A DNA stretch of 46,149 nt from an uncultured Bacteroidales bacterium (GTDB taxonomy: Bacteria; Bacteroidota; Bacteroidia; Bacteroidales; Paludibacteraceae), in NCBI GenBank assembly GCA_900319995.1, contig ONQO01000008.1, positions 1-46,149 of the forward strand, written 5' to 3'. The notes beneath the pieces were generated by a model, which saw only the letters and a list, made by a program, of their open reading frames with translations, had not been told where the DNA came from and did not search any database. Positions 6,056-44,306 of the stretch are shown piece by piece (position 1 is the stretch's first letter; every line of letters starts with the position of its first letter). The position numbers were made by a program, and so were the translations under genes.

Positions 6056-6241
6056 AGTGATGAGTTTTTAAAGCGTTAATAATCTTTTATCCATTCTCGC
6101 GGTATGTACCGCGCGTCTTCTTTTTTATCAATTGTCATTCCCCTGCCTTTTACCTGCTTTTTACCTGCTTTTCACAAAGGGCTTAAGCATCCTTATTTCA
6201 TTCCGAACGCACGCTAAAATTGCACCGGACTTTTGAAATCC
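6056..6241 (-). promoter_or_regulatory. long 5' leader of the VWA gene
   Basis: About 186 nt separate the predicted start point from the VWA ATG. The leader contains three imperfect 11-nt tandem units of the type AAAAGCAGGTA (6140-6175), a perfect stem CGCGGTA/TACCGCG with a 2-nt loop (6098-6113), and two tiny reading frames. It matches no riboswitch I recognise. Confidence 0.5.
6076..6138 (-). CDS. possible 20-residue leader peptide
   Basis: The ATG at 6138 opens a frame MTIDKKEDARYIPREWIKDY ending at 6076. A purine-rich AGGGGA directly precedes the ATG, too close for a normal ribosome binding site. The hairpin at 6098-6113 lies within it. It is rich in charged residues but too short to judge; it may be chance. 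Confidence 0.2.
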   Translation of the reverse strand: MTIDKKEDARYIPREWIKDY

Positions 6242-14114: not shown

Positions 14115-15134
14115 ATGGTCATCGCTATCGTAGGCGCTTCTGGCGCCGTCGGACAGGAACTGTTAGCTGTGTTAGAACAGCGACAGTTTCCGGTTTCCGA
14201 ATTAAGGCTTTTCGGTTCCGAGCGAAGTAAAGGAACAAAGTATAAATTTCACAGCAAAGAGTACGAGGTACAACTGCTGGAACACAACGACGCTTTCAAA
14301 GGCGTCGATATTGCTTTTGTCTCCGCGGGCGCAGGTGTGTCACGCACATACGCGGAAGATATCACCCGTTTCGGTGCTGTCATGATTGACAACTCGTCCG
14401 CATTCCGCATGGACGCAGATGTGCCTTTAGTGGTACCCGAAGTGAATGCGGCGGACGCGCTGAACCGTCCCCGCAACATCATTGCCAACCCGAACTGCAC
14501 AACGATACAGATGGTAGTGGCATTGCAGGCGATAGAGCGTCTGAGCCATATCCGGCGCGTACACGTATCGACTTATCAGGCCGCCTCGGGTGCAGGAGCT
14601 CAAGCGATGAAAGAACTGGAGACGCAATACCGCCAAGTGCTGAACGGCGAAGAAGTGACGGTCAACAAGTTTGCGTACCAGTTAGCCTACAATCTGATTC
14701 CCCATATCGATGTTTTTACCGAAAACGGTTACACGAAAGAGGAAATGAAGATGTACCATGAGACACGTAAAATCATGCATTCGGACATCCGGGTGAGTGC
14801 CACCTGCGTACGGGTTCCGTCGCTTCGGGCACACAGCGAGAGCGTATGGGTGGAAACGGAGCGTCCGATAAGCGTCCAAGAAGCACAAGAGGCGTTTGCA
14901 CACGCAAAAGGCTGCATCCTCATGGATGAACCGGAGAACAAGATTTACCCGATGCCTTTATTCCTCAGCGGCAAAGACGAAGTATTTATCGGTCGTGTCC
15001 GCAAGGACCTGACGGATGATTGCGGACTGAGTTTCTGGTGCGTAAGCGACCAGATACGCAAAGGTGCGGCGCTTAACGCCGTACAGATTGCAGAAGTTAT
15101 AACAAATTATAGTGACGTTATAGTGACATTATAG
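14115..15134 (+). CDS. asd: aspartate-semialdehyde dehydrogenase
   Basis: The enzyme reduces aspartyl phosphate to aspartate semialdehyde with NADPH, the branch point to lysine/diaminopimelate, threonine and methionine. It has 339 residues. The nucleotide-binding motif is [11 protein letters not shown], the catalytic Cys128 lies in NPNCTT, and the base His240 in [10 protein letters not shown]. It starts one nucleotide after the small winged-helix gene. The C-terminus runs into a spacer with tandem repeats before the U32 gene. Confidence 0.97.
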
Positions 15135-15163
15135 CGCCATTAGCCGAATAACCAAGTAATAAC

Positions 15164-15190
15164 TAACTAATCACTAACTAATCACTAACT
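15164..15190. repeat. 11-nt tandem repeat upstream of the U32 gene
   Basis: TAACTAATCAC occurs twice (15164-15174, 15175-15185) and begins a third time (TAACT, 15186-15190), ending 8 nt before the GTG start at 15199. Confidence 0.7.
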
Positions 15191-26234: not shown

Positions 26235-26270
26235 ACCTTTTAACGAGGTTTTAACGACCTTTTAACGAGG
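26235..26270 (-). repeat. 22-nt tandem repeat, inverted copy of the 20415 element
   Basis: ACCTTTTAACGAGG occurs at 26235-26248 and 26257-26270, a period of 22 nt. It lies in the 577-nt spacer between mdh and the adhesin operon. That spacer also carries a run of nine C (26189-26197) and otherwise only the two divergent promoters. Confidence 0.6.
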
Positions 26271-26478
26271 TTTACTTTAAACCTCAAATGTTCTATTTTA
26301 TATCACTATCCGACAACCGACATCCTGTAGCCGGATGAAACCGTTTTTAGAGGTCATTTCGTTTCTTTTTGACACCATCTCTGCTACGCGTATTCTATCC
26401 TCCGGTTATTTCTAAAAAATGGAGAGATAAGCTCTATTGAATATTTTTTAATAAAAATATCCAAAAAATAGCAAAAAA

Positions 26479-26545: not shown

Positions 26546-29500
26546 ATGAAAAGACGTATTCAAGCCATATTGGTAGGTTTGTTTTGTGTTTGTGGAGTTT
26601 ATTCACAAACTCACTTTACCGATAAATATACGATTGTGGGCGACGCGGAGGTGGTGAACGGAAATGTAGCGTGGGATCCGAATGCTCCAGCCAACGACAT
26701 GAGGGAAGCCGGCAATATCATGCAGTTAGCCGTCAAGAATGTAACCCTTTATAAGACCGGAACAGGATGCTCACACTCCTATTATTTCGCCGTCGCTCTC
26801 AACCACGACCTCAATACTACCGTTCCTGTGGTACTCGAAGAGGGTACTATGGACCGGACATGGGGTGTGGAAATCAAAGTGGACAAGAGCGGTGTATATG
26901 ATATCTTGTACTCCTACCGGGGTGGCGCCGCCAAACCCACTTACACACTCACCAAACTATCTGAAATAGACGACCTCTACACCATTACCACGGTGGCAAA
27001 AGAAGCCACAATGGGCAAAGTGACAGGAGGTGGAAAATACGAATGTGGCACACGCGTCAAACTGACCGCCACAGCCAACAACGGGTTCCGATTTGTGGGA
27101 TGGGAAGACGGAGTAACAACTGCTTCACGCACCATTACCGTAACGGAAGATGCAACCTACACAGCACTCTTTGCGCAAGGAGGATTCACACTCGTAGGAA
27201 ATGCACAAATAACCAACAACAACGCCGATTGGGATGCCACCTCTACCGCCAACGACATGACCTTTAATGAGAATGGCGAATGGGTCATAACGGTGGAAGG
27301 AAAAACGCTGTACAAAACGACCAACGGTTGCCAACCTGTTTATCGTTTTGCCGTGGTCGAAGACCACCTACTGGACAAAGCGCGACCTGTCTTGTACTCC
27401 GGTACTACTTTCAAACCGACATTAGGAAGACCGCTCAAGATTGACCAGTCAGGCGTCTATGACCTGACGTTCACATACAAGGAATCAAAAAGTTACCCAA
27501 CCGTGGTTGCTACACTGGTAACCGCCTTGCCCGATCCTACCGTCCATATCACCGCTGAAGCCTCACCATCCAACGGTGGTTTGGTGTCTGCCGGAGGACA
27601 GCCACAAGCGGCACGTTCGGAGACGGATATCGAATGTGGCACCTCGACCGAATTGACAGCTACCGCCGCTGAAGGATACCGTTTTGTGGGGTGGAGTGAC
27701 GGCAATAACGCTGCGGTACGTACGGTGACATCCAAAACGGACGAGACCTATATCGCTAATTTTGTTCCGCTGAGCAACTCTTTCACTTTGGGAGGCTCAC
27801 TGTCAGGAATAGGAGGCGGCGGTGGTAGTGGCAGTGGAGGAGGCGGAGGAGGAGGTACGTTCGTTTCTGACGGGAACGGCGGATGGACGCTTGTCATGGA
27901 GGGCGTGACGCTCATCAAAACAGGTACTGCTTGTTCCGAGTCCTACACTTTCTATGTCGTTCGAGATGATGATGCTACCGACCGTTACCCTACCAGCGGG
28001 GATGGCATTTCGCTTACGGTGCCGCAGACTGGTGTCTATAATATTACCATTACCTATAAAGAAGGTTCTTCTAAACCAACCTACTCTCTTGATTTACTGG
28101 AAGAATTGCCCAACCCCAAGATAACTATCAATGTACTGTCCGATGATGAATCCATGGGTACCGTGAGCGGAGGAGGTACAGCGGATTGCGGATCAAAAAT
28201 GACCATTTCCGCCACTCCGCTACCAGGATATATATTTGTACAATGGTTGGATAAAGACGGTAACAAAAGTACGTCAGCCACACGTACTATCACGCTGACC
28301 GCCGATAATACTTATACCGCTTATTTCGCGCCGGTTATTTATACCGTCATCGGAGATAAAGAATTGGTAGGCGGAGAAACGACATGGGATCCCACGAATA
28401 CAGACTATGACATGCAAGTAAACGAGGATGCTGTGACGTGGGTCTATACAGCAGAAAACGTCCGGCTTGACAAAACGGATGACAACGGTTATTGCCGTCT
28501 GCCCTATTATTGTGCTGTATCTAAAGACCACGCTATCAAACCGAAAACATGGCCGAATGTGCGATCCGGGAATTCATACGTGCGCACGTGGGGATATAAG
28601 GTAAACATTTCTCAAACAGGTATATACAACCTCACCTATACTTTTAATTCGTCTTCAGGGACCCTGACCGTACAAGCGACTCTGGTGGAGGCTCTTGATA
28701 ATCCGACCTATACGATTACTGCTGTGCCGAACAACCCCGCTTGGGGCGAAGTGACCGCATCCAAAGAGCCTGTTTCCGGTGACTTTTCCACAGGAGCTGT
28801 CTATGAATGCGGAACTACGGTACGCATCACGGCCACCAATTATCCCGGTAATCGCTTCCTCAAATGGGAAGATGGACCAACGGCTGTTTCAAGAACCATC
28901 CATGTGCAAAAAGACGTCAGCTTGGTGGCGAACTTCGAACCTACCGACTATACCCTGATCGGTGACGCCGATGTGATTACTACCGGTAGTAACGAATGGG
29001 ACCCAACGGACGCAAAAAACCAAATGACCCTCAGCGAAACAGGCGCATGGCGTATTGAGGTGAAGAACAAAACACTCTTCAAGACCGGCACTGGATGCCA
29101 TGGTTTGTATTATTTCGCTGTCGCGCTTGATCACGGGTTCACACTGACATGGCCAAAAGGTATCAAATCCGCTTCCAATCGGACAAAAGGTGTATCTATT
29201 TCCGTGCCTCAATCCGGTATATACAATATCGTTTATACCTATATTGACGGACAGACGGAACCGTCTTATTTCCTCGATTTGGTAACACCTTTAGACAACC
29301 CGACCTATACGATTACCGCCAATCCCAATCAGACCGATTGGGGAAAAGTGACGGCAAGTCCGGATCCTATCTCCGGTGATATTTCCACTGGAGCTGTCTA
29401 TGAGTGCGGAACCCAGGTCACGCTCACCGCGGCGACCGTCGGTACGGTGTCCAAATGGGTCAAATGGTCAACGGAAAGCACCAGCAAAACACTGACCTTT

Positions 29501-31096
29501 ACCGTCACCAAGGATGCGGATTATATTGCCGAGTTCAATGCAAATGTATATAGTGTGTGGGGAGATTCCGCTATCTTGTACGGCAAACCATTCGATATCA
29601 ACGAACAGCGGAACGACCTTACTTCGGTGTATGATATGGTTGAGGGTAAAACGGTCAGGGAACTATGGGTATATAGGCGCTATCTCACTACATGCAACAG
29701 TCCGTATTTCTTCCAGTTTAATTACAACCGCGGTACCACATATTATCCCTCCAAGACTGAGAATTTATCTTTGAGCGTCAAGCGGAACGGATTGTATGAC
29801 CTCCGATATGTGTTTATTACTTCCCCAAAATCCTATCGTTGTGACACGTTCCTGATAGAAGCCTATCCCGACGAGTTTGTCGTATCGGGCAAGCCGAACG
29901 TGGAAGCACGAGGCACGGTGACGGGCGGCGGCAATATTGCTTGCGGAGCGCAGACGACGCTCCAAGCGACCGCCAACAGCGGGTTTGTATTCAAGTACTG
30001 GAAAGACCTGTCCACACAACCGGGAGTTGATGTCAACGGTACTCCGGTGGACGGTTATACCAATCCGTCTATCACTGTCCGCGCCGACCATAACATCACA
30101 CTTGTCGCTGTATTCGATTGTGTTGGAGGATGCCCGGATATAGAAACACTATACCTGGACCACGCCGCTACTGAGGTGCCGGGCGAATATGATGGCACGC
30201 ACCCACTGTATCTCGCTTATCCCGAAACGGTCGAATCCGACTTGCCTCAAATGGAATGTGTGCCTCCCGTTTCTGCGGACGAGGAAGGAGTATTGCCGGG
30301 TTTGTTCTCTGTGAGCGAGACCGCCAAAGTACGTTTCTCGCAGGGAAACCTGCAATACCGCGCTTCCACCAACACATGGCGTTTGGCTGAACATCAATGG
30401 GACTATGTAGGAAGTAGCAGTGCCTATTACGGTAACGTCTATCAGGACGGTGAAAAGAGCAGCAACGCCAAAATGTCGGCAGAATACGACGGATGGATTG
30501 ACTTGTTCAACTGGGGAAATAGCGGATGGGAGAACAGTTTCCCGCCTTATAATTATAAAAAATACTACGGTGACGACATCAACAAAGCAATTACGCTGAC
30601 CGCTGAGCACGCGAACGCCGATTGGGGTGTGTTCAATCCAATTATCAACGGAGGCGACCAAGCGGGATTGTGGCGAACTTTGTCTTATAACGAATGGAAC
30701 TATCTCTACAGCAAACGTACCAACGCGAAGAATCTACGAGGTAGTGCTACAGTCAACGGTGTGCGCGGATATATCTTCCTTCCGGACGACTGGGTGTTAC
30801 CTGCCGGATTAACATTCAAAACCGGCACCAGTTTCACCAATAACCAATATTCTCCTTCCCAATGGGATAGGATGGAACAGGCAGGAGCAATCTTCCTTCC
30901 CGCTGCTGGATATACGGAGTTTGAAGCCCGTACACTATCCAATGTCGGTGTCTATGGACATTATTGGACGGCAACGAGTTATACAAATAGCTACTACGCG
31001 CGGTTTTTCCAGTTCTCCAGTGGCAGTGTAACATTCAATTATAACTATAAATCCTATGGACGAAGTGTCCGGTTGGTAAAAGATACTAAAAAATGA
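26546..31096 (+). CDS. large repetitive surface protein with InlB-type B repeats and FGE/Fib_succ-like C-terminal domain
   Basis: The 1516-residue protein has a signal peptide (RIQAILVGLFCVCGVYSQ). Six modules of 180-210 residues follow, starting near residues 28, 213, 412, 597, 801 and 1001. Each opens with a strand like YTIVGDAEVV...WDP, contains YYFAVALDH-type and SGVYD/NITYTY-type strands, and most end with a beta repeat of the divergent InlB B-repeat type (VTGGGKYECGTRVKLTA...GFRFVGWEDG). Module 3 carries a glycine-rich linker (about 415-440). Residues about 1250-1516 form a globular domain (KVRFSQGNLQYR...LFNWGNSG...GYIFLPDDW...YGRSVRLV), the Fibrobacter major paralogous type. No T9SS tail is seen. 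Its stop is 7 nt before the next gene. Confidence 0.85.
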   Translation: MKRRIQAILVGLFCVCGVYSQTHFTDKYTIVGDAEVVNGNVAWDPNAPANDMREAGNIMQLAVKNVTLYKTGTGCSHSYYFAVALNHDLNTTVPVVLEEGTMDRTWGVEIKVDKSGVYDILYSYRGGAAKPTYTLTKLSEIDDLYTITTVAKEATMGKVTGGGKYECGTRVKLTATANNGFRFVGWEDGVTTASRTITVTEDATYTALFAQGGFTLVGNAQITNNNADWDATSTANDMTFNENGEWVITVEGKTLYKTTNGCQPVYRFAVVEDHLLDKARPVLYSGTTFKPTLGRPLKIDQSGVYDLTFTYKESKSYPTVVATLVTALPDPTVHITAEASPSNGGLVSAGGQPQAARSETDIECGTSTELTATAAEGYRFVGWSDGNNAAVRTVTSKTDETYIANFVPLSNSFTLGGSLSGIGGGGGSGSGGGGGGGTFVSDGNGGWTLVMEGVTLIKTGTACSESYTFYVVRDDDATDRYPTSGDGISLTVPQTGVYNITITYKEGSSKPTYSLDLLEELPNPKITINVLSDDESMGTVSGGGTADCGSKMTISATPLPGYIFVQWLDKDGNKSTSATRTITLTADNTYTAYFAPVIYTVIGDKELVGGETTWDPTNTDYDMQVNEDAVTWVYTAENVRLDKTDDNGYCRLPYYCAVSKDHAIKPKTWPNVRSGNSYVRTWGYKVNISQTGIYNLTYTFNSSSGTLTVQATLVEALDNPTYTITAVPNNPAWGEVTASKEPVSGDFSTGAVYECGTTVRITATNYPGNRFLKWEDGPTAVSRTIHVQKDVSLVANFEPTDYTLIGDADVITTGSNEWDPTDAKNQMTLSETGAWRIEVKNKTLFKTGTGCHGLYYFAVALDHGFTLTWPKGIKSASNRTKGVSISVPQSGIYNIVYTYIDGQTEPSYFLDLVTPLDNPTYTITANPNQTDWGKVTASPDPISGDISTGAVYECGTQVTLTAATVGTVSKWVKWSTESTSKTLTFTVTKDADYIAEFNANVYSVWGDSAILYGKPFDINEQRNDLTSVYDMVEGKTVRELWVYRRYLTTCNSPYFFQFNYNRGTTYYPSKTENLSLSVKRNGLYDLRYVFITSPKSYRCDTFLIEAYPDEFVVSGKPNVEARGTVTGGGNIACGAQTTLQATANSGFVFKYWKDLSTQPGVDVNGTPVDGYTNPSITVRADHNITLVAVFDCVGGCPDIETLYLDHAATEVPGEYDGTHPLYLAYPETVESDLPQMECVPPVSADEEGVLPGLFSVSETAKVRFSQGNLQYRASTNTWRLAEHQWDYVGSSSAYYGNVYQDGEKSSNAKMSAEYDGWIDLFNWGNSGWENSFPPYNYKKYYGDDINKAITLTAEHANADWGVFNPIINGGDQAGLWRTLSYNEWNYLYSKRTNAKNLRGSATVNGVRGYIFLPDDWVLPAGLTFKTGTSFTNNQYSPSQWDRMEQAGAIFLPAAGYTEFEARTLSNVGVYGHYWTATSYTNSYYARFFQFSSGSVTFNYNYKSYGRSVRLVKDTKK

Positions 31097-31103
31097 TATC
31101 CTG

Positions 31104-34100
31104 TTGAAGAAACTGCTCACCATAGTATCCTTGCTCTGTTGTCTCATGACAACTCGGATGTACGCCGCCGGCTCCTCCACCGAAGGAACCGAGTTCTGGC
31201 TTACGTTCATGAGTAACCTCAAATGGCAGGCTTCCGATAATGCGCTGCAACTAAAGCTGATTGTCTCTTCACGCTACACCACCAGCGTGACCGTCAGCAA
31301 CCCGAACACCTCATGGAGCACTTCGGTTAATGTGGCTGCCAATGGCATTTCCGAAGTCACTATTCCTGTGGCTCAGGCATACACCACCTTGGTGGAGAAA
31401 GCCGCTCCAACAGGTCTGAGGGTAGTATCGTCCAAACCTATATCCCTCTATGCTTCCAATTATGCCGACGCTTCCTATGATGCAACGAATGTGCTACCTC
31501 TTCCCGCGCTTACAGGCAATTATATCATACAGACTTACGAGAGTAATCTGTTCTACGAAGATATCCATTACGCCAAAGAGTTCATCATTGTGGCTACAGA
31601 TAATTGCACCGTCGATATTACCCCTCATGCCCGTACGACCACCGGAAGACTGCGCAACAGTCCGTTCTCCGTGTCTCTGAAGAAAGGTGAAGTGTATCAG
31701 GTGATGTCCACAGATGAGAACAACGACTTGTCCGGTACTGTTATACGCGCCTCAAGACCCATTGCCGTCTTCGCCGGACACCAGTGCGCTACCGTCCCTT
31801 CCGACAACGAGTGGTGTGACCATATAGTGGAGCAGTCCATGCCGGTCAGCCAATGGGGAAAACAATTCCCGGTCACGGCTTCTATGATTCAACAGACCAA
31901 CCATGTTCTGATAACTGCCCTCTCCGGTAATACGGAAGTCAGTGTGAACGGTAGCATTGTGGCTACCCTGGGTGCGCTGGAGACCTACGAATATCTGCTT
32001 ACCGAGCAGTCCTGCTTTATTGAGACATCCTCACCTGCGGCATGTTATCTGTATCTGGAAGGAGGAATGACTAACAACCGATGGGGAGACCCCAGTAGCG
32101 TGTATATCAGTCCGACGGAACAGATGATACAGCTCATGACGTTTTCTACGTTCCAGACTCCGCGTTCCCAGTACCACTACGTCAATATAGTTACAACAAC
32201 GGATGGGAAAGAGAGTATCCGTCTGGACGGCGCACCCATACGAGCTTCTTTTGCTCCTCTGGAGGGAAATCCGGAACTTGTGTTTGCGCGTATCAAAGTG
32301 GAACACGGTACCCATACTATCCAGACCGACGTGGACGGATTCACGGCATGGGTTTATGGTATGGGCGACGGAGAGAGTTATGCTTATACGGCGGGAAGTG
32401 CCACCAATGCGCTCGACGCTCAGATAATAGTGGACGGACGAAGTGGTACGCAGATTGAAATGGAGGATTTCTGCTACAATCATATTTTTACCTTTACGCC
32501 CTTGGTTAATATCCCTTATTCGACCGCTGTTTGGGATTACGGCGACGGTTCCGGTAAGGGAAACGGTTCCAACGTGACACATCAGTACACCAAAGCCGGC
32601 AATTATACCGTCACGATGAAGGTAAGCAATTCTTCTGAGGAACAGACTGTCACTACCGTCTTGCACCTTGTCAGCACTCGTAAGGATACCGTCTATGCCA
32701 CCATTTGTAAAGGCGAGAAATATGTCTTCAACGACAACGAATATTCCACAACAGGCATATATACCGTCACAGGACTCCTTTCCGCAGACGGATGTGACAG
32801 TATAGCTGTTCTCAAATTACAGGTGAACGATTCATATTTCTTCGAAGAGGAAAAAAGCATCGCCAAAGGGCAGACCTATCGGTGGCACGGAAAACGATAT
32901 ATTGAAGGAGAGTATTACGACAGCTTGCTTACCGTGGACGGATGTGATAGCGTGTTCAAACTGACACTCAAGGAGGTGGATCCGCCGCAGAAACAGTATG
33001 ACACTATTTGCTATGAACCGACTTACACCTTTCACGGACATGAGTTCCCTATTCCGCCTGTGGACAAATATAAAGACAAGGAGTATGTGGATTACGTGCT
33101 CGAATACAGGGATAACGAGGCATGTCTTACTTACAAACTGTACCTTGCCATAGTGCCTACGGCGGAAGAGCACAAGGAGTTTGAGGTTACTATTGAAAAC
33201 GGGCAATCGTATGATTTTCACGGACAGATACTCAATGCTACAGGAGACTACACTTATGAGGAACCTCTCGGCTGTCACGGTACTTACAGCGAGACGTTGC
33301 ATTTGTTTGTCAAACCCTATCCGGTTATTGAGACGGAAGAAGTGTTGTGCAAACAGAACGATTCTTATGAGTTCTTCGGAAAAACACTCACCGCCGGTGG
33401 AATATATTTTGATACGGTGTATTCGATATCGGGTATATCGGAGTTGCGCAAACTGACACTCATAGATAACCGCAGTTATAATGAGATAAACATCAGCACG
33501 ACCGAAGCCTCCTACACTTATCTTGGGACGACTTACACACAGACAGGTACGTATACTGTAGTTATCAAAAATGCAGCCGGCTGTGACAGTATCATTACGC
33601 TGAATATCGGTATAGGAGGAAAATGCAAACTTGAAACCGAATGGACGGATTATATCTGCAAAGATGGAGAGTATGTTTGGAACAGTAGCACCTATACCTC
33701 TCCGGGCGATTATACACAGACTTTCGAAACAACAGCACACTGTGACAGCGTAGTGACTCTCCATTTGCTTGAAGCCAAACCGGCGTCAACATCCTTTTCC
33801 GCTTCTATTTGCGAAGGAGACTATTACAAATGGAACGGCGAAAAATATGATACGGAAGGTCCGCATGCGCAAACACTCACTACTATTCACGGTTGCGACA
33901 GTGTGGTGACGCTCAACCTTACCGTAAACGATACCTACTATACCACCAAAGACGAATCGATTGTTTTGGGAGAGACCTTCAAATGGGACGGTGATGAATA
34001 TACGGAAGAAGGCGTTTATACCAAAGATTATATTGCCAAAAACGGTTGCGACAGCGTCGTGCAAATCAACCTCTCTGTCATTACTACTGTCTATTCTGAA

Positions 34101-35027
34101 TTCAAAAAAGAAATCTGCGAAGGCGGTTTTTACGAATGGAACAATGAGAAATTAAGCGTTCAAAAAGATTACCGGCACACTTATCTGCGTCCGGGGAAGG
34201 CGGATAGTGTAGTGACTCTGCATCTCATTGTTCATCCTTCCTATGATAAGCCGGCAGAGAATGTTACGGTAAAAGAATCTGAATTGCCATATTTATGGCA
34301 AGGAGTTGAACGCTACGAAGAGAAATACTATACGGAAATGCTGAAAACGGAAACGTTCCTGTGCGACAGTCTTGTACATTTGAACCTGAAAATTCTGCAC
34401 ACTATCTACAAGACGGTGGACTCCACTATCTGCAAGGGCAGTTATATCCTGTGGAACGACCTTCATTGCGATGAGGCGAAGGATTATGTGGCACATCTGA
34501 CCACAGCCGCCGGTTGTGACAGTATCGTGACGCTACATCTGAAACATTACGCCGACCCTAAAGAAGAATCAAAGGATGGCGGTACTTGCAAAGGAACACC
34601 GTATATCTGGCATGACCAGCCATATTCGGAGCCGGGCGTACATAAACTGACACTGAAAAACAAAGCCGGGTGCGATTCGGTATATGCGACTTTGAACCTG
34701 ACGGTCTATGAACCGGTAGAGACCACCGACGAGGATGGTTTTGCTTGTTATGGCAAGGAGTTCAAATGGAATGATCAAACCTATACAGAAAGCGGCACCT
34801 ACACACAACATCTCAAAACCGTTCACGGTTGTGATAGTACCGTGACGCGTAAGGTAACCATCCTGCCGGAAGCGGTGAGCCATGAGGACAAGTTTTTGTT
34901 CACCGGAGACAGTTATGAGTGGAACGGCAAGACCTACGATGCGACCGACGACTATGAGTTCCATACAACCACCGACAGAGGTTGTGACAGTACGGCATAT
35001 CTGCACCTAACAGTAAGTAGGTTGTGA
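31104..35027 (+). CDS. giant modular T9SS-type surface protein, N-terminal fragment (frameshifted)
   Basis: A TTG start at 31104 with a good signal peptide (LLTIVSLLCCLMTTRMYA) opens 1307 codons. Residues about 25-430 resemble the IgGFc-binding N-terminal domain found in Bacteroidota surface proteins (GTEFWLTFMSN; PISLYASNYA; RPIAVFAGHQCA). A PKD domain follows (WDYGDGSGKG...HQYTKAGNYTV, about 473-515). From about 530 onward are modules of about 65 residues of the form ICKGEKYVFN...Y...G-Y...GCDSIVTLHL. The frame ends at 35027 after a 40-bp tandem duplication. The continuation is in two other frames up to 37360. Without these breaks the protein would have about 2080 residues. Confidence 0.82.
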   Translation: MKKLLTIVSLLCCLMTTRMYAAGSSTEGTEFWLTFMSNLKWQASDNALQLKLIVSSRYTTSVTVSNPNTSWSTSVNVAANGISEVTIPVAQAYTTLVEKAAPTGLRVVSSKPISLYASNYADASYDATNVLPLPALTGNYIIQTYESNLFYEDIHYAKEFIIVATDNCTVDITPHARTTTGRLRNSPFSVSLKKGEVYQVMSTDENNDLSGTVIRASRPIAVFAGHQCATVPSDNEWCDHIVEQSMPVSQWGKQFPVTASMIQQTNHVLITALSGNTEVSVNGSIVATLGALETYEYLLTEQSCFIETSSPAACYLYLEGGMTNNRWGDPSSVYISPTEQMIQLMTFSTFQTPRSQYHYVNIVTTTDGKESIRLDGAPIRASFAPLEGNPELVFARIKVEHGTHTIQTDVDGFTAWVYGMGDGESYAYTAGSATNALDAQIIVDGRSGTQIEMEDFCYNHIFTFTPLVNIPYSTAVWDYGDGSGKGNGSNVTHQYTKAGNYTVTMKVSNSSEEQTVTTVLHLVSTRKDTVYATICKGEKYVFNDNEYSTTGIYTVTGLLSADGCDSIAVLKLQVNDSYFFEEEKSIAKGQTYRWHGKRYIEGEYYDSLLTVDGCDSVFKLTLKEVDPPQKQYDTICYEPTYTFHGHEFPIPPVDKYKDKEYVDYVLEYRDNEACLTYKLYLAIVPTAEEHKEFEVTIENGQSYDFHGQILNATGDYTYEEPLGCHGTYSETLHLFVKPYPVIETEEVLCKQNDSYEFFGKTLTAGGIYFDTVYSISGISELRKLTLIDNRSYNEINISTTEASYTYLGTTYTQTGTYTVVIKNAAGCDSIITLNIGIGGKCKLETEWTDYICKDGEYVWNSSTYTSPGDYTQTFETTAHCDSVVTLHLLEAKPASTSFSASICEGDYYKWNGEKYDTEGPHAQTLTTIHGCDSVVTLNLTVNDTYYTTKDESIVLGETFKWDGDEYTEEGVYTKDYIAKNGCDSVVQINLSVITTVYSEFKKEICEGGFYEWNNEKLSVQKDYRHTYLRPGKADSVVTLHLIVHPSYDKPAENVTVKESELPYLWQGVERYEEKYYTEMLKTETFLCDSLVHLNLKILHTIYKTVDSTICKGSYILWNDLHCDEAKDYVAHLTTAAGCDSIVTLHLKHYADPKEESKDGGTCKGTPYIWHDQPYSEPGVHKLTLKNKAGCDSVYATLNLTVYEPVETTDEDGFACYGKEFKWNDQTYTESGTYTQHLKTVHGCDSTVTRKVTILPEAVSHEDKFLFTGDSYEWNGKTYDATDDYEFHTTTDRGCDSTAYLHLTVSRL
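34416..34850 (+). repeat. near-identical module repeat A, copy 1
   Basis: This stretch (GTGGACTCCACTATCTG onward) recurs at an offset of 829 nt (35245-35679) with only scattered single-base differences, and its first part again at 36011. It encodes the modules DSTICKGSYILWNDLHCDEA, then DGGTCKGTPYIWHDQPY and ACYGKEFKWND. Confidence 0.85.
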
Positions 35028-35058
35028 CAGTACGGCATATCTGCACCTAACAGTAAGT
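34979..35058 (+). repeat. perfect 40-bp tandem duplication causing a frameshift
   Basis: 34979-35018 and 35019-35058 are identical over 40 bp (beginning AGGTTGTGACAGTACGG). As 40 is not a multiple of three, the second copy shifts the frame by +1, and a TGA follows at once. Removing one copy restores a continuous GCDSTAYLHLTVSDKP junction, the same as at the next module. Confidence 0.9.
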
Positions 35059-35793
35059 GACAAACCTATCAAAGACAGTACGGAAACGGATACACGTTGC
35101 GCCGGAGAGACGTTTATTTGGTATGAGCACACTATTGTCGCCAAAGAGACCACTAACTCTTATACTCATCGCATAGAGGGAGAAGAGACAGATACAATCA
35201 TACACCTCAGTCTGACGGTCAATCCTTCGTATCCGAATGTAGAAGTGGACTCCACTATCTGCAAGGGCAGTTATATCCTGTGGAACGACCTTCATTGCGA
35301 TGAGGCGAAGGATTATGTGGCACATCTGACTACAGCCGCCGGTTGTGACAGTATCGTGACGCTGCATTTGAAACATTACGCCGACCCTAAAGAAGAATCA
35401 AAGGATGGCGGTACTTGCAAAGGAACACCGTATATCTGGCATGACCAGCCATATTCGGAGGCGGGCGTACATAAACTGACACTGAAAAACAAAGCCGGGT
35501 GCGATTCAGTATATGCTACCTTGAACCTGACGGTCTATGAACCAATCGAGACCACCGACGAGGAAGGTTTTGCTTGTTACGGCAAGGAGTTCAAATGGAA
35601 CGATGAGACCTATACGACGAGCGGCACCTACACACAGCATCTCAAGACCGTACACGGTTGTGATAGTACCGTGACGCGTAAGATAACTATTCCGACAAAA
35701 CCGGCAACCAGTTCCGAGTCACAAACCATCTTCAAAGGAACAAGCTTTACATGGAACGGCAAGACCTACGATGCGACCGAACAGAGGTTGTGA
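35020..35793 (+). pseudogene. giant surface protein, middle fragment in frame +1 relative to the N-terminal part
   Basis: This frame has no own signal or start. It reads GCDSTAYLHLTVSDKPIKDS at once after the duplication, then DTRCAGETFIWYEHTIVAKE and copies of DSTICKGSYILWND, DGGTCKG and ACYGKEFKWND. It stops at 35791-35793 where, compared with the parallel module at 34930-34985, about 26 nt are missing between GATGCGACCGA and ACAGAGGTTG. It is part of the same original gene as 31104-35027 and 35771-37360. Confidence 0.8.
35245..35679 (+). repeat. near-identical module repeat A, copy 2
   Basis: Second copy of the stretch at 34416-34850. A separate long repeat (35020-35340 against 35786-36106, offset 766 nt) overlaps its start, so the modules interlock as a higher-order repeat. 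Confidence 0.85.
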
Positions 35794-37360
35794 CAGTACG
35801 GCATATCTGCATCTGACGGTAAGCGACAAGCCTTTCAAGGATAGTACGGAAACGGATACATGTTGCGCCGGAGAGACGTTTATATGGTACGAACACACCA
35901 TTGTAGCCAAAGAGACCACTAACTCTTATACTCACCGCATTGAGGGCGCAGAGACGGACACCATCATCCACCTTGATTTGACGGTTAATCCTTCGTATCC
36001 GAATGTAGAAGTGGACTCCACTATCTGTAAAGGCAGTTATATCCTGTGGAACGACCTTCATTGCGATGAAGCGAAGGATTATGTGGCACATCTGACCACA
36101 GCCACCGGTTGTGACAGTATTGTGACCCTACATTTGAAACTCTATCCGAAGTATGACCAGGTGACCGATGAGCAGACGATATACACCGGAGAGAGTTATG
36201 AGTGGCAGGGAGAGACCTATACCGAGACAACAACTGTCACCAAAACGCTTCATACTGTACACGGTTGCGATTCCGTCGTAACGCTACAACTGACGGTCAA
36301 TGACCATAAAACAGAGTACCGCGACATAGATGCGGACATATGTGAAGGTGAGACCTATCTGTTCTACGGCGAAGCGCTCACGCAGCCGACGGAAAAAACC
36401 GTCACGCGTCAAGGTGACAATACCGATACCATTGTGACGCTGCATCTGTCCGTATGGTCGGATTTCTACCGCGAGATAACGGACACCGTTCCACTGGGAC
36501 AGTCCTATACCCTCGGTGACCGTATGTTTGAGGAATCGGGTGATTATACCATAACCGGTACTACTGTACACGGCTGTGACAGCACTGTTGTCCTGCATTT
36601 GGCTACCAACCAAGTGGACATATTGGCGATTGAAGCGGATGAACAATGCGCGGATGACGATATGCTGGAGTTCAAGGTGGACTTCACCGGCGTCGCACAT
36701 GAGGTTCGTATTAATTTTACCGGAGAACGTGCACACGCACAAGGATGGCGGGATACAACCGTAGCAATGAATCCGGACGGTATCGTCCAACTGCCATACC
36801 ACGGAAAAGCCGGGCATTATACGGCAACCGTTGAACTGCTCTTCCGCGGACAAGTAGTAGCATCCTCTGACCTCAATCTGACACTCCTCTATCCGTCTTC
36901 GGTCTTGGAGCAGGGATGGAATGATGCAGTACTCGTCCTGACGCACGATTACAATGGCGGATATGATTTTGTGGCATTCCAGTGGTACGAAAACGGCATA
37001 CTGTTACTCGGAGAGACGCATTCCTATATCTATCGGCCTCTGATTATGGGCGGTGAGTACAGCGCCATGCTCACAGAGCAGGATGGTACGAGACTTATGA
37101 CCTGTCCGCTGATAGCGGTACCGCATACGGATATAACCTTGTATCCGACCGTTGCGGCGCCGGCACAGAGGATTCGTTGCTACACTAATGAGGATGCAGA
37201 ACTTATACTCAGCGATGCTGTAGGACACAGGATGATGCTAATGGATGTTCCTGCCGGAGGAAAAGAATTTAATGCACCTCTTACGGAAGGACTATACATG
37301 GTGCATGTCCGAATACTTCCTTCCGGTGCTCCCAGAATATACAAACTTCTTGTCCGCTAA
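35771..37360 (+). pseudogene. giant surface protein, C-terminal fragment with T9SS sorting domain
   Basis: The 529-residue frame starts at an ATG that is only the module sequence GATGCGACCG read in the third frame. It lacks a signal peptide. It contains GCDS modules (SDKPFKDS; DSTICKGSYILWND; EQTIYTGESYEWQGETY; ADICEGETYLFYGE; DTVPLGQSYTLGD), a non-repeat region (36600-37100) and a C-terminal type IX sorting domain: DITLYPTVAAPAQRIRCYT, LILSDAVGHRMMLMDV, LTEGLYMVHVRI and a final YKLLVR. T9SS exports such proteins and attaches them to the cell surface. In this state the tail is out of frame with the signal peptide. Confidence 0.82.
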
Positions 37361-43838: not shown

Positions 43839-44216
43839 TTACGGCCTAGCGTCGTACGCAGCCAGTTCGAGGCTCCAGAGGTACGACTTCATGGTCTTTT
43901 TGCCGTTGGGCTCGTTACGCTGGGCAAGGAAGTTCTCCGTGTCGGTGGTCACCTTGCTCAGGTCTTTCTTACGAGCCGCCACAGCTGCGCCTACGGTGGC
44001 GAAACGCACGCGGCGTGCCATTTCCTCTGCCAGTACCGGAGTAGTACGTACCACTTTGTCTCGCATATAAACGCGGTTACAATCGCTACTGGTCGTAGCC
44101 GCCGTGCGGTGGGTTGCCAACAGCATTTTCTTGCACGAGTGCTGACCTTTCTTACTCGGTTTGCTCAATGCACCGGATACATGATCAATACCGGTGCTCC
44201 ATGTCACTTTTGCCAT
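43839..44216 (-). CDS. small basic protein of a paralogous family, unknown function
   Basis: The 125-residue basic protein starts MAKVTWSTGIDHVSGALSK. The opening resembles those at 44865-45131 (MAKVEFAPGIESVTGILTG) and 44307-44621 (MSKVQLTGAFARFRGKLNK), suggesting a family. The rest has an R-x-RFATVGAAVAARKK helix and a terminal MKSYLWSLELAAYDARP. No signal peptide. I do not recognise the family. It is last in the minus-strand cluster and runs into a terminator. Confidence 0.6.
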   Translation of the reverse strand: MAKVTWSTGIDHVSGALSKPSKKGQHSCKKMLLATHRTAATTSSDCNRVYMRDKVVRTTPVLAEEMARRVRFATVGAAVAARKKDLSKVTTDTENFLAQRNEPNGKKTMKSYLWSLELAAYDARP

Positions 44217-44220
44217 AAAT

Positions 44221-44306
44221 TTTCAATAGTTAAAGGGTTAAATTGTTAAATGGTTAAATTGTTAAAGGGTTAATGGCCAATAGCCAATAGCTAATAGCCA
44301 ACAGCC
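44221..44306. repeat. degenerate short tandem repeats between two small genes
   Basis: A run of GTTAAA-type units (GTTAAAGGGTTAAATTGTTAA and variants) is followed by AGCCAATAGCTAATAGCC-type units. The second type resembles the spacer at 43735-43783. Confidence 0.65.

Follow-up and report, generated by a model that had tools for sequence, protein, structure and literature searches.

A surface-protein gene in three frames across near-identical repeats of a Paludibacteraceae draft genome, most likely through faulty assembly joins

The window analysed here is a stretch of 46,149 nucleotides from an uncultured gut bacterium of the Bacteroidales, family Paludibacteraceae (assembly GCA_900319995.1, contig ONQO01000008.1, forward strand). 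It corresponds to the complete contig C53 of a draft that comprises 143 contigs and is 88% complete. Its subject is a long gene on the plus strand for a repeat-rich, putatively surface-exposed protein, which is open in three pieces, each in its own frame: 31104-35027, 35017-35793 and 35687-37360. The first piece (1307 amino acids (aa), TTG start, with a putative signal peptide recognized by eye) carries an IgGFc_binding domain (PF17517, residues 126-419, 217.1 bits against a curated cut-off of 25.6, E 4.2e-64), a PKD domain (PF18911, E 1.8e-10), both assigned by Pfam, and the first of a series of GCDS-type repeats. The second (258 aa) holds further repeats, and the third (557 aa as an open stretch, or 529 aa from the ATG at 35771 to 37360) contains the last repeats, a C-terminal region (36605-37357) and a tail of the kind associated with the type IX secretion system (T9SS). 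Neither the second nor the third piece matches a Pfam or NCBIfam family above its curated cut-off, the only sub-threshold match being to SufE (E 0.01). The GCDS-type repeat itself (about 45-50 aa, W-G-Y ... GCDS), found at 32600-36600 of the window and in relatives, likewise lacks a model above the curated cut-off in either collection. The three frames proposed in an earlier, sequence-only reading of the window are confirmed, and the positions of the frames bear out its remark that the putative signal peptide and the C-terminal tail are encoded in different frames of the assembled sequence.

The gene encodes a PF17517, PKD and GCDS-repeat protein of a Paludibacteraceae-type bacterium with a T9SS, and is itself an ordinary member of a surface-protein family common in its genus; its N-terminal part is matched in 145 of the 178 genomes of the genus, its own included. 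The tail matches no Pfam or NCBIfam model and is not among the 13 TIGR04183 matches of the genome, but over the last 251 aa its identity to two paralogues of the same draft, on contigs C61 and C91, is 55% and 50%, and the tails of these paralogues score above the TIGR04183 cut-off. The genome codes for SprA (TIGR04189, 2622.8 bits) in a single frame of 2524 aa, with no match in any of 14 control genomes; this was the sole T9SS component searched for, and its presence makes T9SS export of the product plausible. Among known systems, the gene is closest to the IgGFc_binding/PKD/T9SS repeat proteins of the Bacteroidales, with which it has in common the N-terminal PF17517 domain, the PKD domain, the repeat array and a C-terminal region that also occurs in TIGR04183-matching paralogues; its frame in the assembled sequence is interrupted twice, whereas 21 of 26 other loci, the best-scoring of a longer list of homologues, consist of a single uninterrupted long frame (the C-terminus being judged by eye). 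A literature search pairing IgGFc with type IX secretion found nothing.

Both interruptions fall within large repeat units, termed here supermodules, of about 790 bp. Supermodule 1 (34416-35244, plus strand, as are the others) comprises about five GCDS-type repeats as counted by eye; supermodule 2 (35245-36010) is 97% identical to it across the first 300 bp, and the start of a partial supermodule 3 (36011-36139) differs from copy 2 in 8 of 43 codons, 7 of them synonymously. The perfect 40-bp tandem duplication described in the sequence-only reading lies in supermodule 1, with its first copy at 34979-35018 and its second at 35019-35058; Tandem Repeats Finder reports 2.00 copies at 100% identity for 34979-35058, limits that a second, exact scan reproduced. 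Since the array amounts to exactly 2.00 copies, there is no microhomology at the junction 35018/35019. The loss of about 26 bp near 35780, which that reading had proposed from a parallel module, is also upheld: in a base-by-base alignment 26 bases of supermodule 1 have no counterpart in supermodule 2 at 35780/35781, and exact matches of 29 bp and 31 bp to copy 1 flank the gap. The two lesions occupy equal positions in their modules, 766-806 bp apart, and the gene shows no further stop or shift in about 6.2 kb. Hairpin-driven instability was considered as their origin and dropped, as the four strands tested at the lesions fold no better than shuffled sequences (z +0.43 to +0.66). The homologue in genome G016 (locus L024, contig C21) has internal repeats of its own, spaced about 610-630 bp apart, from which amplification of supermodules may be general in the family.

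The 40-bp repeat is not a chance repeat. A scan of the 1,301,691 bases of the genome for perfect tandem repeats with periods of 20-400, excluding units that are themselves short repeats, returned 21 rows, among which the 40-bp unit is the only one with a period of at least 30 that is not a multiple of 3 and a longest open frame above 200 aa. The supermodules also give an indication of age. Their differences by first, second and third codon position are 10, 5 and 20 in the first comparison (156 codons; 15 synonymous and 13 nonsynonymous codon changes), 4, 2 and 17 in the second (62 codons; 18 and 4) and 1, 0 and 7 in the third (43 codons; 7 and 1), the third-position bias being only moderate in the first. 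As the differences lie mainly at third positions and the gene carries no other disabling change, the breaks, if real, are very recent.

A close comparison comes from the same draft. A paralogue on contig C63 (locus L064 of genome G000, 1-2884), which has near-identical internal repeats of its own, is also split in three frames, with open stretches at 2-529, 541-1276 and 1290-2881 in frames 1, 0 and 1. Its first break coincides with a gap of 11 N, the flanks of which share a perfect end-to-end overlap of 99 bp, whereas at the second, at 1284/1285, the sequence jumps out of frame from one repeat copy to another. The 99-bp duplicate is a case of overlapping ends laid side by side, and the pairing of an unmerged overlap with a jump resembles the arrangement in the window. 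Because this paralogue is broken in the same double way, assembly joins were weighted up and decay of the gene was weighted down.

An unmerged overlap was found in a further place, on contig C81, where a gene following a sigma-70-type factor contains a perfect 35-bp tandem duplication. The frame of this gene stops at 120 aa, compared with 191-230 aa in its seven best-scoring relatives; three weaker partial matches in the genus measure 169, 133 and 87 aa. No Pfam match occurs in its first 76 aa, and a reading of the gene as an anti-sigma factor derives from its place after the sigma factor. The 35-bp unit ends exactly where contig C48 diverges, and C48 shares 99 bp with C81 and lacks the duplication. 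It is this coincidence with a 99-bp contig overlap that is informative for C81. The 155 contig ends gave nine exact terminal matches of 31 bp or longer, four of which measure exactly 99 bp (pairs C63/C47 and C48/C81). Exact end-to-end overlaps between contigs came to a single one of 16 bp, so that the matches of contig ends to the interior of other contigs told more. As a separate observation, the sigma-factor gene and the gene after it (C81, 13119-14307, locus L178; start of C48, locus L158) lie in a region of which the draft contains another, diverged copy. The gene after the sigma factor reaches 97% identity in another species of the genus, and some drafts have contig edges inside it; the C81/C48 region may be mobile.

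From the rows of the genome scan, inspection by eye singled out three complex duplications whose period is not a multiple of 3, namely those of 40 bp in the window, 41 bp on C73 and 35 bp on C81. All three adjoin a second copy of the surrounding sequence, a situation met at 318 of 4000 random positions and, within open frames of at least 150 aa, at 183 of 3524. Nine of the 21 rows were tested in this way, and second copies were found for seven and for neither C43 nor C58; apart from the three complex duplications, the rows tested were left out of the evidence. A systematic excess of 40-bp duplications was looked for and not found, the complex perfect ones of 35, 40 and 41 bp being the only ones singled out by eye in 1.30 Mb. 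The C73 duplication was dropped as evidence on boundaries, as the end of its match is uninformative: the C43 match ends at the end of the first C73 copy because C43 lacks the duplication. The overlap of 99 bp measured in the draft also fits the window: the end of the first 40-bp copy lies 99 bp after the start of a run of supermodule identity (34920), and the start of the second 99 bp before the end of such a run (35117); as 5 of the 101 overlap lengths from 41 to 141 would fit run boundaries in this way, the coincidence counts as weak support.

The locus was also compared in relatives, as had been advised in the sequence-only reading. In G133, the closest relative among the matches listed (orthologue 86% identical in the first 499 aa), both pieces of the gene are open as far as the contig edge, and a contig break lies inside the gene: contig C11 ends within the gene repeats and contig C114 starts there. 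These ends have exactly 94 bp in common and, laid side by side, would give the same type of duplicate as that in the window. C114 and the 40-bp unit open with the same 13 bases. Two other loci among the 26 end at a contig edge like G133 (G101 and contig C117 of G163), and the remaining two look broken: one in G113 (L075), where a T run shows a 2-bp difference from G018, and one on contig C30 of G104 (L089), judged by eye, which has ambiguous bases near its end.

The explanation regarded as quite likely is that the three frames arose from faulty joining in the draft assembly. The locus would then hold a single long and unbroken gene whose product is a surface protein exported by the T9SS, with recent amplification of the supermodules, each about 790 bp, inside it. 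The assembly would have been unable to pass these near-identical units cleanly, and ends of neighbouring contigs would have been joined head to tail, in one case without merging an overlap of 40 bp, which would produce the duplication, and in another probably with the loss of about 26 bases. The anatomy of the repeats, both lesions, the failure of the switch discussed below and the paired faults of the C63 paralogue are demonstrated here; we infer that both lesions are joins of this kind and that short reads underlie the draft. The absence of microhomology and of an unusual hairpin at the junction of the 40-bp units was counted in favour of a join. PMC2864568 and PMC9516828 describe how adjacent overlapping ends give rise to false duplicates that affect genes, and the unmerged overlapping ends at C63 in this draft are of the same kind; the cases in those papers stem from vertebrate assemblies and mostly involve haplotype differences and gaps, whereas the window site is free of N. 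In PMC8199421, ruminant drafts were built from MEGAHIT and IDBA-UD contigs merged at a 100-bp overlap setting, but the draft studied here may have another origin.

Several points weigh against faulty joining. The window contains no N, and a stretch of 40 bp is within the span of short reads. The C63 duplicate measures 99 bp and spans N, as opposed to 40 bp without N in the window, and of the three N gaps seen, those on C34 and C48 lack a duplicate in their flanks. Within the same genome, the paralogues on C35, C61 and C91 are open, as is the one on C85, a frame of 515 aa with one supermodule. Joining accounts less well for the 26 missing bases than for the duplication, as an overlap would not remove them, and no unbroken copy of the window junction turned up in the draft. 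The 13 bases common to C114 and the 40-bp unit consist mostly of a frequent GCDS codon string (GGTTGTGACAG, which occurs 6 times in the window). Duplications inside a single contig are, moreover, rarely mis-assembled according to PMC2864568.

Other readings take the lesions or the pieces as real. A 40-bp duplication and a 26-bp deletion may both have occurred in this strain, leaving a young pseudogene or a secreted fragment without its tail. Both lesions are indeed present in the assembled sequence, the lack of other stops or shifts and the third-position share of the differences (20 of 35, 17 of 23 and 7 of 8) fit a very recent break, and the two apparently broken loci in G113 and G104 offer a parallel; yet two lesions at the same module position, with none elsewhere in the gene, would be unlikely if they were random, C63 shows the same pair of faults with one of them at an N gap, and the C81 duplication sits at a contig overlap. 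A pseudogene test found disabling lesions neither common to relatives nor spread along the gene, the G133 pieces being open. Recent decay is accordingly held to be unlikely. If the lesions are real, the repeat arrays of the family, in the window gene and in C63, may be hot spots of frame-breaking indels that are kept in the population, so that some cells would anchor the protein at the surface and others would release it tailless, a scenario that we rate as improbable. It is more doubtful still that supermodule variants of at least two strains were joined, so that the pieces are real, their order and junctions are not, and the true copy number may differ. The divergence of supermodule 2 from supermodule 1 does peak immediately left of the missing bases, which are themselves flanked on either side by matching sequence, and the ends of contigs C36 and C41 overlap by 302 bp at 95.7% identity, which implies that near-identical variants coexist in the draft; against this, no alternative contig for the window locus was found in the draft, and nothing at the locus points directly to two strains.

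The sequence-only reading had also offered a reversible switch through slippage at the duplication. Perfect tandem repeats in surface genes resemble contingency loci, and the 40-bp array recalls them. Between the lesions, however (35059-35780), frame 1 is free of stops, against 12 in each of frames 0 and 2; as only one frame is open there, no copy number of the 40-bp unit joins the start of the gene to its tail, and the switch is contradicted. The unit is, in addition, present in only two copies, and in 240,150 bases of relatives the six rows of perfect repeats near the surveyed homologues all lie outside the frame of the homologue, judged against that frame only. A literature search combining phase variation, tandem repeats, Bacteroidetes and type IX secretion found nothing. 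The switch was rejected for this sequence because of its frames, and its probability is next to nil. Of the three options put forward in that reading, assembly error is therefore the one best supported, by the evidence from C63, C81 and G133, recent decay is less likely, and the switch fails on its closed frames.

A split repeat gene in a draft of the metagenome type should thus have its junctions checked against reads before it is read as decay or phase variation, and a concrete test is to seek the same faults, and the length of the contig-end overlap, elsewhere in the same draft. Should the breaks be real, they would suggest a rapid loss of surface anchoring in a widespread family of T9SS repeat proteins.

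Directly 5' of the gene lies another on the plus strand (26546-31096, 1516 aa), in which five stretches match PF18998 (InlB B-repeat type). In the window, in G133, in G016 and on contig C91 of G000 (loci L045, L024 and L023), the gene immediately before the IgGFc_binding gene encodes a product with similar C-terminal motifs, either SVRLV-D-K or SVRPVQDIK, and the pair looks conserved. A plasmid search gave no match. The contig itself starts inside 69-bp tandem repeats (1-1160) that match contigs C37, C74, C84 and C83, a second repeat at which the assembly stopped. Tandem repeats of short period (11, 22, 7, 14, 8 and 16 bp) recur throughout the genome, apparently mostly between genes; in the window they occur at 6142-6172, 15106-15190, 26238-26273 and 44216-44273, and they are also present on many other contigs.

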